NCBI RefSeq assembly: GCF_900142415.1
Contig: NZ_FRAU01000004.1
Span: 186,001-250,000 of the forward strand
DNA length: 64,000 nucleotides
Reading direction: 5' to 3'
Source of the DNA: Rhodothermus profundi
GTDB taxonomy: Bacteria > Bacteroidota > Rhodothermia > Rhodothermales > Rhodothermaceae
Shown here: positions 46,206-52,572 of the stretch, in pieces
Numbering within the stretch: position 1 is the stretch's first letter
How the letters are laid out: every line of letters starts with the position of its first letter
The notes under the pieces: generated by a model
Told to the model about the DNA's origin: nothing
Databases searched by the model: none
Seen by the model: the letters and a program-made list of their open reading frames with translations, nothing else
Position numbers and translations under genes: made by a program

Positions 46206-47124
46206 GCCTATGCCTGCCGAAGCAACCTCCCCCGCCACATGGCCTCCCTATCTAGATGAAAGCACGCTGGACACGCTAATCCAGCAATGGCTAGCCGAAG
46301 ACATCGGCTCCGGTGATGTGACCACTGAGGCCACCGTTCCGCCTGAACGCCAGGCCCGTGGCCTTTTCCTCGCCAAAGCCGGAGGCATCATTGCTGGACT
46401 CCAGGTGGCCACACGCATCTTCCAGCAGGTTGACCCGAACGTGCGCGTTTACTGGCACCAGGCAGATGGCTCGCCGGTTACGGCAGGCACCATTTTTGGC
46501 ACTGTAGAAGGCGCTGCCCAAAGCCTCCTCATGGCCGAACGCCTCGCGCTCAACCTCTTGCAACGCATGAGCGGCATCGCGACAGCCACCCATCGGCTGG
46601 TCGAACGCGTGCGTCCTTACGGCACCAAAGTGCTCGACACACGCAAGACGGCTCCCGGGTTGCGATTGCTGGACAAATGGGCGGTGCGCCTGGGTGGCGG
46701 CGTCAACCATCGCCTGGGACTCTACGACATGATTCTAATCAAAGACAACCATATTGCGGCCGCGGGCGGCATCCGCGAAGCTATTGAAGCTGCCCACCGC
46801 TACCGCGCCCAACGCCCACACCCTATTCCTATAGAAATCGAAGCCCATTCCCTGGAAGATGTCGACGCCATTCTTGCTATCGGCGGCGTCGACTGGATCT
46901 TACTGGACAATTTTGCCCAGCGCCTTCCCGATGGCACGCTCAACGTAGCACCGCTTCGGGAAGCTGTCCAGCGCATCAATGGCCGCTTCTATACAGAAGC
47001 TTCTGGCAACATCTCACTTGAAACGGCCGAAGCTATTGCGGCAACTGGCGTAGATGCCATTTCCTGTGGCGCGCTCACGCACTCGGTCCAGGCCCTTGAC
47101 CTGTCACTGGAACTCACGCTGTAG
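46192..47124 (+). CDS. nadC: Nicotinate-nucleotide pyrophosphorylase (carboxylating)
   Basis: 310 residues; a second ATG at 46210 could be the true start. QPRTase landmarks: WLAEDIGSGDVTTEAT, ERLALNLLQRMSGIAT, VLDTRKTAPGLRLLDKWAVRLGGGVNHRLGLYDMILIKDNHI, EIEAHSLED, WILLDNF and ASGNISLE. It converts quinolinate and PRPP to nicotinate mononucleotide, the step that joins de novo synthesis to NAD. nadA and nadB are not in the window. Confidence 0.97.
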   Translation: MASLEPMPAEATSPATWPPYLDESTLDTLIQQWLAEDIGSGDVTTEATVPPERQARGLFLAKAGGIIAGLQVATRIFQQVDPNVRVYWHQADGSPVTAGTIFGTVEGAAQSLLMAERLALNLLQRMSGIATATHRLVERVRPYGTKVLDTRKTAPGLRLLDKWAVRLGGGVNHRLGLYDMILIKDNHIAAAGGIREAIEAAHRYRAQRPHPIPIEIEAHSLEDVDAILAIGGVDWILLDNFAQRLPDGTLNVAPLREAVQRINGRFYTEASGNISLETAEAIAATGVDAISCGALTHSVQALDLSLELTL

Positions 47125-47173
47125 GCAGTTTTATAAGGCGCGAACCCCTCCACGAATTGGCCTCCATTACGTC

Positions 47174-48352
47174 ATGACCGAATTTGTGCGGCTGTTGCAC
47201 CGGCAACTACAGGCGTCTTTCCCACCTACGCGCGCTTACTCGATCCGGGAGCTTCGCCAGCTAAACCTGCCCGATGCGCTTGCGCACTACATGCAGCATC
47301 AAGCCATTGCCCGGGCAGAAACCATGCTGCCGGCGCTTAATGAGACCTGGTTCGAAACGGAGGCACCGCCCGTTCGTGAAGCCTATCAACAGCTCTGCAC
47401 CCATCTTCGCTCGCATGTGCGCGTGCCTGCCCAGGCGTGGTCTGAGCTGCTTCGGGAAAGCGTGCAGGCCCTGGTTCATTATCTGGTGCAGCCTATCCGC
47501 ACCCTCACAGCCCACGTCTTTACTGAAACGGATACCCTGTCGGCCGATCAGGTGCTGGCGCGCATGCACTGGTTTCTGCCCTACGCTTACTTCCGGGAAG
47601 CCGTCGCGCTTTACCTCAAAGAAAAGCAGATGACCCACTTGAACCAGGACCGTTTCGCTACGCTGCTCACACGCATCGACCGCGAACTGACCGCCGACTT
47701 TGACGCAGAAGCCTGGGTGCGGCTGCTCCGTCCACTTTATGAACTGGCCGCGCTGCTGCCGCAGCGCCCTGTTACCCTGCCTACCTCGCTGCTCATTGCC
47801 TTTTTTGCGGAAAAACAGCAATCCCTCCTGGTGCAACGCCTCCAGACCAGAGGCACTGCTCTGCTAACCACTGAAGCGCTGCGTGAACTTATCGCGGACG
47901 CGTCAGCCGCCGAATTCGATTCTTCCATTGCCGAAAGCGAGGAGCCTCTCCCTCTATGGAAACGTTTCCAGCTACAACAAGCCGCTCCCGAAGACGTACC
48001 GACCGTTACCGAAACTGCTGCCCTCCCTCGCTGGATGCAGTTCTATCAGCAACCGCCCATAGCTCCCTCCTCTGAACCTTCCATAGCAGACCTGGAACGC
48101 GAAGTGCTCGGAGAAACTGGCCTGCGCAACCGAGAGCTGTTTATCACGCACCTGTTCAACGGAGACCAGGCCGCTTACGTCCGCGTGCTCCACCTGTTGC
48201 GCGACACTCCTACCTGGGCCGAAGCTTCTCGGCTCATTGCCCAGGAGGTGTTCCGCCGCTATCACGTGAATATTTATAGTGAACCCGCTGTCGCCTTTAC
48301 CGACGCAGTGGAACGCCGATACCAGAAAAAACAGGCGTCCCCCTTGCAATAA
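47174..48352 (+). CDS. Unknown protein, predominantly helical
   Basis: 392 residues from the ATG at 47174, 49 bp after nadC; the longer open frame (from 47054) lies inside nadC and is discarded. No signal peptide or membrane helix. The first ~230 residues are helical (MQHQAIARAETMLPALNETW, SELLRESVQALVHYLVQPIR). A charged low-complexity linker follows, with two LPxWxxFQQ-like units (LPLWKRFQLQQAAPED and LPRWMQFYQQPPI). A C-terminal helical unit (NRELFITHLFNGDQAAYVRVLHLL) completes it. The two similar units may be docking motifs. No family recognised; codon use matches the neighbourhood. Confidence 0.65.
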   Translation: MTEFVRLLHRQLQASFPPTRAYSIRELRQLNLPDALAHYMQHQAIARAETMLPALNETWFETEAPPVREAYQQLCTHLRSHVRVPAQAWSELLRESVQALVHYLVQPIRTLTAHVFTETDTLSADQVLARMHWFLPYAYFREAVALYLKEKQMTHLNQDRFATLLTRIDRELTADFDAEAWVRLLRPLYELAALLPQRPVTLPTSLLIAFFAEKQQSLLVQRLQTRGTALLTTEALRELIADASAAEFDSSIAESEEPLPLWKRFQLQQAAPEDVPTVTETAALPRWMQFYQQPPIAPSSEPSIADLEREVLGETGLRNRELFITHLFNGDQAAYVRVLHLLRDTPTWAEASRLIAQEVFRRYHVNIYSEPAVAFTDAVERRYQKKQASPLQ

Positions 48353-50614: not shown

Positions 50615-50760
50615 ATTCCAGGGTTTACTTTGCCTATAGATCGGAAAGCTTTTCCTGAGCGGGCTGAAACCCCCGTTGCAGGCTATCGTTCGTTACTTGG
50701 GCACACTGCTTGTAGGTAGCATCTGGCAACCGAATCTCCCATCCATCTGGAGAGCGCACC

Positions 50761-51249
50761 ATGTACGACGAGCAGATTCGTAAGTTGATCGAACAGTTTC
50801 GGGCAAAATTTCTGGAACTTTCGAGTGAAGAAATTCAGCGCTTGATCGAAGAGACAAAGGCTGAAGCGCTGGCCGAAGCGCGTGCCATTATTAAGGAGCA
50901 GATGCTGGAGGCCATCCTGGAACAGTCAGCGCGTATGCAACTCCGGCAGGCTCCCCAGCCGACGCAAACGACCCAGCCAACGCCTCCGCCCCGGAAACCT
51001 GAACCAACGCAACGCCCCCCTTTTGAGACGCCCCGGGTGACGCTGGTCAGTCGCCCGGAGACACCTTCCAAGCCTCCTTCCTCTAAGCCAGAACCGGCTG
51101 CTGTCGAGGCGGCAGAGCAAAATGGTACCGAAGTGGACGGAGCTCGCAAGATCCTGCGTGAGATTGAAAACCTTCGTCAACAGCTCAGTGCCAATGAGGA
51201 GTGGCTAACTCGGGGTGGTTCCGTTGCAGACGAACATGCCGGTGAATAA
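50761..51249 (+). CDS. Pro-rich coiled-coil protein sharing an N-terminal module with the next gene
   Basis: 162 residues, no signal or membrane helix. Residues ~1-57 are a charged helix. A Pro/Gln/Thr-rich unstructured linker spans ~62-115 and a short C-terminal coiled coil lies at ~127-147 (ARKILREIENLRQQL). Residues 23-55 align without gaps to residues 18-50 of the downstream GvpF/L-family protein, 18 of 33 identical; shared blocks include EALAxAR and LEAIL. No known family is recognised. It overlaps that gene by 14 bp, so the two are coexpressed and probably interact or share a docking partner. The linker-plus-coil design suggests a scaffold or tether; this is inference. Confidence 0.72.
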   Translation: MYDEQIRKLIEQFRAKFLELSSEEIQRLIEETKAEALAEARAIIKEQMLEAILEQSARMQLRQAPQPTQTTQPTPPPRKPEPTQRPPFETPRVTLVSRPETPSKPPSSKPEPAAVEAAEQNGTEVDGARKILREIENLRQQLSANEEWLTRGGSVADEHAGE

Positions 51250-52144
51250 TCCTGATAAGCCTGCTCGGCGCTGGTTTTTTTCCGAAGAGGAAATATACCA
51301 GTTGACCGAGGCCTCCCGACAGGAGGCGCTGGCCCAGGCCCGAACCCTGCTCAAACAGTGGTGGCTGGAAGCCATCCTCCAACAGGTTACCCGGCATCTG
51401 GCCCCTCCTGCTACCCAATCAGAACAGGAAGTTTATTACGTCTATGGTATCACATGGGCGGGCTTATCCGTGAAGGGACCTGAACCGCTGGAGACCATCT
51501 CGTTTCGTAACCTGCAGGCCCTGGTCCGGCGCGTCCCCGCCTCAGAGTATAGCCTGGACGTCATTCGTCAGCGATTGCACGATGCTGCATGGCTACGCGC
51601 ACAACTACGCGCACATCATCGCCTGCTGGCTTCGCTCCAACTGGAAGGGCCCCTGTTGCCCTTGCGTTTTGGTACGATTTGCCCCGAAAGGCAACATGTA
51701 CAGGCGCTCCTGAGCGTCAACTACGAAGATTTCTGTGCTACGCTGGCTTTGCTGCACGGCCGCCAGGAATGGGTGCTCTGGCTCGACGCTGACCGTCCCC
51801 GCTTGCAAGAAGCCATTGCGCTGGTCCACCACCTTGCAACCGACGACCCATCGCTGGAAACCGAGACGGACCGGCTACTTCAGATGGCAGCCGAACACTG
51901 CCACCAGACGCTGGCGGCGCTGGCCGATCGAAGTGCCGTCCAGCACCTTGATGTTCACCGCCATCCCGTTCTGCGGGCGGCCTACCTGGTGGCTACTGAA
52001 CGCTCGGACGCCTTTCGGAATCAAGTGGCTTCCTTGAAACGGGCCTATCAAACGCTGGGCATCCGATTGCAACTCGATGGTCCTACACCGCCGTTTAACT
52101 TTGCCCGCCTGCACCTGGAAGAAGCGTCTGCAACTGTGGGATGA
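51236..52144 (+). CDS. GvpF/GvpL-family protein with extra N-terminal module
   Basis: 302 residues from the ATG at 51236; the frame reaches a GTG at 51215. Residues ~16-50 are the helical module shared with the upstream gene. From ~67 the GvpF/L family pattern is clear: VYYVYGI, the Leu-rich LQALVRRVPASEY, AHHRLL, LLPLRFGTICP, and the C-terminal PTPPFNFARL, equivalent to the conserved GPWPPYxF. In gas-vesicle formation GvpF/L proteins bind the shell protein GvpA as chaperone or minor component. No gvpA, gvpG, gvpK or gvpN is in the window, so this copy may work elsewhere or serve a distant cluster. Confidence 0.82.
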   Translation: MPVNNPDKPARRWFFSEEEIYQLTEASRQEALAQARTLLKQWWLEAILQQVTRHLAPPATQSEQEVYYVYGITWAGLSVKGPEPLETISFRNLQALVRRVPASEYSLDVIRQRLHDAAWLRAQLRAHHRLLASLQLEGPLLPLRFGTICPERQHVQALLSVNYEDFCATLALLHGRQEWVLWLDADRPRLQEAIALVHHLATDDPSLETETDRLLQMAAEHCHQTLAALADRSAVQHLDVHRHPVLRAAYLVATERSDAFRNQVASLKRAYQTLGIRLQLDGPTPPFNFARLHLEEASATVG

Positions 52145-52572
52145 ACCGCTGCTGGCATACCCCGGTCTGCTTACCCGCTACCCTTTTATTCGTTTACGGC
52201 ACGCTTCGTGGACAGGTGCATCGTTTTCACCCTACAACGCTGCGTGAGGCGGTACGCTTGCTGGGACAGGCTACTTATCGCGGCCGTCTCTATAACCTCG
52301 GTACGTACCCGGGCGTGGTACCCGACCCTGCCCATACCGTTCACGGCGAGCTGTATGCCCTGCGGCGCCCTGAAGCCGCCCGTATTTTTGCCTATCTGGA
52401 TGCTTATGAGGGATGCAATCCTGCTCGGCCGGAAGCAGGCGAATACCGGCGTGTTCAGGATACCGTATACCTGCCCTCTGGCCACTCCCTGAAGGCCTGG
52501 ATCTATCTATATAACGGGGATCTATCCCGGGCGCGCCTGATCCCCTCGGGCGATTACCTGTGCTGTCGCTAA
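52141..52572 (+). CDS. Gamma-glutamylcyclotransferase-fold protein
   Basis: 143 residues. The GGCT/AIG2 fold signature FVYGTLRGQ is at 17-25, GxLYNLGTYPGVV at 49-60, and Glu90 in LDAYEG is the expected general acid/base. WIYLYNGD follows near the C-terminus. Relatives open or cyclise gamma-glutamyl amines, for example in glutathione or gamma-glutamyl-peptide turnover. It overlaps the GvpF/L gene by 4 bp (ATGA) and closes the three-gene operon, tail to tail with sdhB after 2 bp. GvpF/L plus GGCT is not a combination I know. Confidence 0.85.
   Translation: MNRCWHTPVCLPATLLFVYGTLRGQVHRFHPTTLREAVRLLGQATYRGRLYNLGTYPGVVPDPAHTVHGELYALRRPEAARIFAYLDAYEGCNPARPEAGEYRRVQDTVYLPSGHSLKAWIYLYNGDLSRARLIPSGDYLCCR

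Follow-up and report, generated by a model that had tools for sequence, protein, structure and literature searches.

Proteins of the GvpF/GvpL family (PF06386; crystal structures 4QSG and 6L5D) have been annotated and studied solely as gas-vesicle assembly factors. They are known to bind the N-terminal helix of a client protein, GvpA: GvpF binds GvpA residues 1-22 (helix 1), giving a split-GFP signal higher than that of whole GvpA (PMC7688916), and a chaperone or chaperone-like role has been proposed (PMC7688916, PMC11445434). Here we describe a locus of Rhodothermus profundi, within a stretch of 64,000 nucleotides that was analysed as a whole (the window), in which a protein resembling GvpF/GvpL in the fold and Pfam family of its C-terminal domain (B) is encoded next to a second protein (A) that carries the same N-terminal helix. 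Compared with GvpF/GvpL, B has an extra N-terminal helical module, belongs to a separate clade, scores below the NCBIfam cut-offs, and comes from a genome without GvpA. We estimate at roughly 0.5 the probability that A and B together constitute a GvpF/L-based scaffold or chaperone, in the form it takes in Rhodothermus and unrelated to gas vesicles. A preliminary description of the locus knew of no described system with this composition, and we likewise found no published account of one in the open-access literature.

The locus and its GvpF/L-fold protein

Three overlapping genes are encoded on the forward strand. Gene A (50761..51249, +) is an ORF of 162 aa in which a module helix and a C-terminal helix are joined by a Pro-rich linker that contains a conserved motif. 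Gene B (51236..52144, +) encodes 302 aa from its ATG, with a GTG 21 bases upstream as a possible alternative start, and combines a module helix with a GvpF/L-fold domain. Gene C (52141..52572, +) encodes a 143-aa protein discussed separately below. When the ORFs were re-read, the coordinates given in the preliminary description, along with its overlaps of 14 bp between A and B and 4 bp between B and C, proved right. An orthologue of A was found in all seven Rhodothermus genomes, as was the A–B pair, and dN/dS, at the distances where it could be computed, was ~0.11 for A, 0.11-0.13 for B, and 0.08-0.09 for C. Judged by these ratios, the A–B cassette is under purifying selection. A role as a known anti-phage defence system found no support: PADLOC gave no defence-protein model match for A, B, or C.

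The GvpF/L domain of B spans residues 67-290 (51434..52105, +) and matches PF06386 with E = 3e-36 and 126 bits, for a cut-off of 23.6. The protein lies well below the NCBIfam equivalog cut-offs, scoring 30.3 bits against 350 for GvpF and 21.1 against 200 for GvpL. A profile built from B and its relatives (A5) nonetheless matched both GvpF crystal structures (6L5D, E = 7e-33; 4QSG, E = 2e-29), and the AlphaFold2 model of B, with a mean pLDDT of 89, consists of a helix over residues 17-55, a looser linker, and then the domain. The best PDB matches to this model in Foldseek were three GvpF chains, including 6L5D (E = 1e-11, probability 1.00). On the predicted structure, the domain of B therefore has the GvpF fold, and the reading of B as GvpF/L-like in the preliminary description is upheld by both the Pfam score and the model.

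Other gas-vesicle genes were looked for across genomes. GvpA (PF00741) had no match in the R. profundi genome (99.7% complete) or in any of the seven Rhodothermus genomes, one of which is a single contig at 100% completeness; the same search yielded matches in 5 of the 245 genomes of the class, which served as its positive control. GvpK was also not found in the R. profundi genome, in a search that had no positive control. The lack of shell genes first noticed in the vicinity of the locus thus extends, for GvpA, to the entire genome, and because GvpA is missing, a distant split gas-vesicle cluster lacking its own GvpF/L, which would have made B an ordinary member of such a cluster, is excluded here. 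Across the class, GvpF/L was detected in 44 of 245 genomes and GvpA accompanied it in only four of these, so that 40 of the 245 encode GvpF/L without GvpA, including single-contig genomes of 99-100% completeness (G003, G156, G172).

The helical module and the remainder of protein A

The module occupies residues 21-60 of A (50821..50940, +) and residues 16-55 of B (51281..51400, +), and both copies are recovered by a 40-column module profile (A2) with E = 6e-18 and E = 1e-20, respectively; the copy in B is predicted to form a single helix. Counted on the translations, A 23-55 and B 18-50 are identical at 18 of 33 positions without gaps, as originally reported, and BLASTP extended this to 25 of 53 (E = 2e-9). 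The local alignment of A and B scored 94, while the best of 5000 shuffles of B that kept its hydrophobic/polar pattern scored 55, and the likeness is therefore not generic coiled-coil similarity; the two copies are read as homologous. The preliminary description had also proposed a profile search for further proteins with the module: run over the 3.14-Mb genome, A2 found A and B alone, the next-best match having E = 0.43, and the module is thus not a common coiled coil. In A, 62% of module columns are invariant across the seven genomes. Equally supported was the view that the module is conserved, restricted to this pair, and unconnected with gas vesicles.

Homology between the module and GvpA was considered but not detected, as profile comparison gave no similarity, and any analogy with the GvpA helix is therefore functional only. 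Nor did profile comparison reveal homology with the N-terminal part of orphan GvpF/L proteins from other Bacteroidota.

An N-terminal helix leading into a Pro-rich linker is reminiscent of encapsulation peptides, which are carried by BMC and encapsulin cargo. Such peptides share with the module a short terminal helix, a flexible Pro-rich stretch, and an occurrence on several proteins, and the placing of one module on several otherwise different proteins would suit an encapsulation or docking tag, with A and B as cargo of a protein-compartment shell. The known candidate shells are all absent, however: no BMC shell (PF00936) or encapsulin shell (PF04454) gene was found in the genome, in searches whose controls matched in E. 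coli and Synechococcus and in three genomes, respectively, and GvpA is missing as noted above. Moreover, the module reaches ~40 residues and probably also forms long arrays in relatives, unlike a tag. Known shells thus lend no support to the idea of an encapsulation tag, which would need a shell of unknown type, and we regard this explanation as improbable.

A belongs to no Pfam family, and its low-confidence Pfam and NCBIfam matches (E >= 0.045) were dismissed as low-complexity. Its linker had been viewed as a mere tether but holds more than that, namely a near-invariant linear motif of 17 residues (85-101; 51013..51063, +) with the consensus PF[EV]TPRVTLVSRPETP. Across the seven genomes, 82% of the motif columns are invariant, compared with 4% and 22% for the linker on its two sides, and the motif occurs once in the genome. 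The C-terminal helix of A (residues 125-150, core ILREIENLRQQLSANEEWL; 51133..51210, +) is similarly conserved, with 65% invariant columns, and in both of the related families f8 and f10 one of the small module proteins terminates in the corresponding element (ILxEIExxRxQ..NE..L). Separately, synonymous divergence within the motif (51013-51063) was 0.27-0.53, against mostly 0.6-0.9 elsewhere, over only 15 sites, and this lower divergence may mean that the DNA or RNA is itself under additional constraint.

Module cassettes and repeat arrays in related genomes

Relatives were sought within the phylum, in a set that includes many draft genomes. The A–B pair of Rhodothermus is bordered by a gene for a LysM lytic transglycosylase on one side and by sdhB-sdhA, in convergent orientation, on the other, and comparable cassettes (type I) occupy the matching chromosomal site in two other families. 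In f10 (G172), the GvpF/L gene follows two small module genes of 83 and 251 aa, while three small module genes (76-77, 83-93, and 138-142 aa) precede GvpF/L in f8 (G166, G168); a further f8 genome, G167, has its module genes and GvpF/L gene on separate contigs. Each cassette encodes proteins that share one helix but have different tails, and module matches across the class occurred only in type I cassettes, plus weak ones in the fused arrays described next. Among the tails, the first small protein of f8 ends in [AS][VI]LIVDE and the second in GGTWFQPQPS[LM] (L070, L072, L137), and both endings are candidate docking motifs. The window also encodes a 432-aa protein (47054-48352, +) with no Pfam match; in another family, a similar-looking 506-aa protein (L137, 1045-2565), also without a Pfam match, is encoded in the corresponding place, close to the lytic transglycosylase gene.

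In a second architecture (type II), seen in families f4-f6, f13, and part of f12, the GvpF/L domain forms the C-terminal end of a single protein of 560-1917 aa in which repeats are followed by a linker and then by GvpF/L. All seven N-terminal parts tested displayed a 44-residue period, with a best offset of 44 (45 in one protein) accompanied by 88 and 132 or 135. A profile of the 44-aa repeat identified 2-12 copies in 18 of 21 type II proteins, and reversed sequences gave no match. The first unit and the last one appear the most similar to the type I module, with weak profile matches in G163, G155, G156, and G161. In a profile-profile comparison, module and repeat matched with E = 4e-4 over 19 columns, and none of 100 pattern-keeping column shuffles did as well; with ~20 aligned residues and an hhalign probability of 35%, homology of the 44-aa repeat with the type I module is probable rather than proven. 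AlphaFold2 gave low-confidence predictions for a type II array (pLDDT ~45), too uncertain to interpret. Type II proteins, for which we found no name, thus resemble B in their GvpF/L clade, their independence from gas vesicles, and their probably homologous N-terminal helices, but differ in being a single chain, in which as many as 12 repeats were found, encoded at another chromosomal site. From inspection of the sequences by eye, one flank of that site was read as a P5CDH-like gene and the opposite flank as FtsX-like, peroxiredoxin, MoaD, MoaE, and PurC genes. Type II linkers (L064-L069, L077-L091) are acidic and contain apparently conserved Trp motifs with the consensus WxxLSDxxD.

In types I and II, the GvpF/L domain always comes with helices, whether in cis or in trans. 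The idea of co-assembly raised in the preliminary description is strengthened by these relatives, since the class encodes one, two, or three module proteins in trans or a repeat array in cis on GvpF/L, and, as the simplest account of these sequence patterns, we infer that the module helices of A and B co-assemble. Within the proposed scaffold or chaperone, these helices would bundle together as the in-trans equivalent of a fused array, or alternatively the GvpF/L domain would hold them much as GvpF does with the N-terminal GvpA helix. The motif and tail helix of A could then recruit a client to the complex. As what are probably the same modules occur both in small proteins and in a fused array, this arrangement predicts contacts that can be tested.

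The module could also have been copied between neighbours by tandem duplication, with A and B now acting separately on their own partners or on a common one. Copies that lie side by side and vary in number (1, 2, or 3) between families are what such duplication gives. Joint assembly is favoured instead by the distinct version of the module that is conserved at each position across the genera of a family, and by the cis arrays, in which modules are fused to GvpF/L; separate action therefore seems to us rather unlikely. Another explanation would be a membrane or lipid-surface coat, in which the modules are amphipathic, apolipoprotein-like lipid-binding helices kept soluble by GvpF/L. The single long predicted helices, the array period of 44 aa (twice 22), and the arrays' weak hits on apolipoprotein E in the PDB (E = 0.002) point in this direction, but the lipid-binding discriminant was low in every module tested (D <= 0.34), net charge was mostly negative, and designed helix bundles matched at least as well. 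On these sequence properties, lipid binding is less likely, and we give a coat of this kind little chance.

The relationship of these proteins to gas-vesicle GvpF/L was assessed in a tree of 60 GvpF/L domains, built by a quick method with SH-aLRT support and no bootstrap. A branch with SH-aLRT 97 places types I and II and four orphans of other Bacteroidota on one side, and 24 GvpF/L from gas-vesicle clusters and two others on the opposite side; type I alone forms one side of a branch with SH-aLRT 91. B did not group with GvpF/L of gas-vesicle clusters, including those from the same class. This bears on whether the locus could be a vestige of a lost gas-vesicle cluster, with B as a leftover GvpF/L and A as a decaying neighbour, both now functionless. 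The known role of GvpF/L is otherwise that of a gas-vesicle accessory, and the four genomes of the class with both GvpA and GvpF/L would fit such a loss. Against this, dN/dS in A and B is ~0.11-0.13, the genes have persisted in all seven Rhodothermus genomes and across many other families, the domain of B falls outside of the gas-vesicle clade, and a relic would not retain conserved elaborations such as modules, arrays, and the motif. We consider a vestige very improbable.

Those GvpF/L-containing genomes without GvpA that were examined fall almost wholly in the clade of B and have conserved helical partners, which points to an undescribed use of the GvpF/L family. Because the clade is separate and the shell gene absent, annotation of such proteins as "gas vesicle synthesis protein" is misleading, and these genomes amount to a natural experiment in how the GvpF/L domain works on its own. 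It is possible, if still doubtful, that GvpF/L is not specific to gas vesicles and that a separate clade in this phylum organises an undescribed assembly of helical modules, supplied either by small proteins whose docking peptides differ or by repeats linked covalently into an array. If this were true, GvpF/L would be a general holder of amphipathic helices, with the gas-vesicle role as one case.

Gene C and the upstream region

Gene C encodes a GGACT/YtfP-like protein with a gamma-glutamylcyclotransferase fold, matching PF06094 (E = 2.5e-24, 86.6 bits, cut-off 22.8) and, in the PDB, YtfP (1XHS). By sequence, it is a member of the GGACT/AIG2-like gamma-glutamylcyclotransferase family and a putative enzyme, and an LDAYEG stretch spotted by eye presumably holds the family glutamate. 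It was detected in six of the seven Rhodothermus genomes (absent from G001) and is not kept with A–B outside of the genus, being absent from the cassettes of f8 and f10; it is therefore accessory rather than core, and probably a passenger or late recruit. The "three-gene operon" of the preliminary description accordingly stands as three overlapping genes but not as a conserved unit, and the inclusion of C as an integral member of the system found no support.

No classical sigma-70 promoters were identified, and terminator matches were at chance level. The element GAAAC-N16-CGTTC (50666..50691, +), ending ~70 bp upstream of A, is a candidate promoter: it is invariant, with exact spacing, in all seven Rhodothermus genomes, and is the sole match in the window, where 0.10 would be expected. 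We take its form to resemble that of ECF-sigma promoters, and an ECF-sigma-type promoter of A is offered as a lead only. The element is absent upstream of the cassettes of other families, the one match in L070 lying away from the cassette start. An inverted repeat, GGAAAGCTTTTCC (50643..50655), located 3' of the upstream lytic transglycosylase gene, was seen in the 5'-region alignment of the seven genomes and is present in all of them with a few base changes.

Elsewhere, in the Bacteroidota family f30 (L130, L131, and L133, from G255, G433, and G286, respectively), divergent orphan GvpF/L-domain genes are arranged head-to-head with an ECF sigma gene, and their products have an N-terminal helical region of a different kind. 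In L133, the sigma gene is followed by a gene for a zf-HC2 protein, a possible anti-sigma factor. Another Bacteroidota family (L135, from G293) has a compact gas-vesicle-like cluster encoding a GvpA-like protein and a short GvpF/L-like protein.
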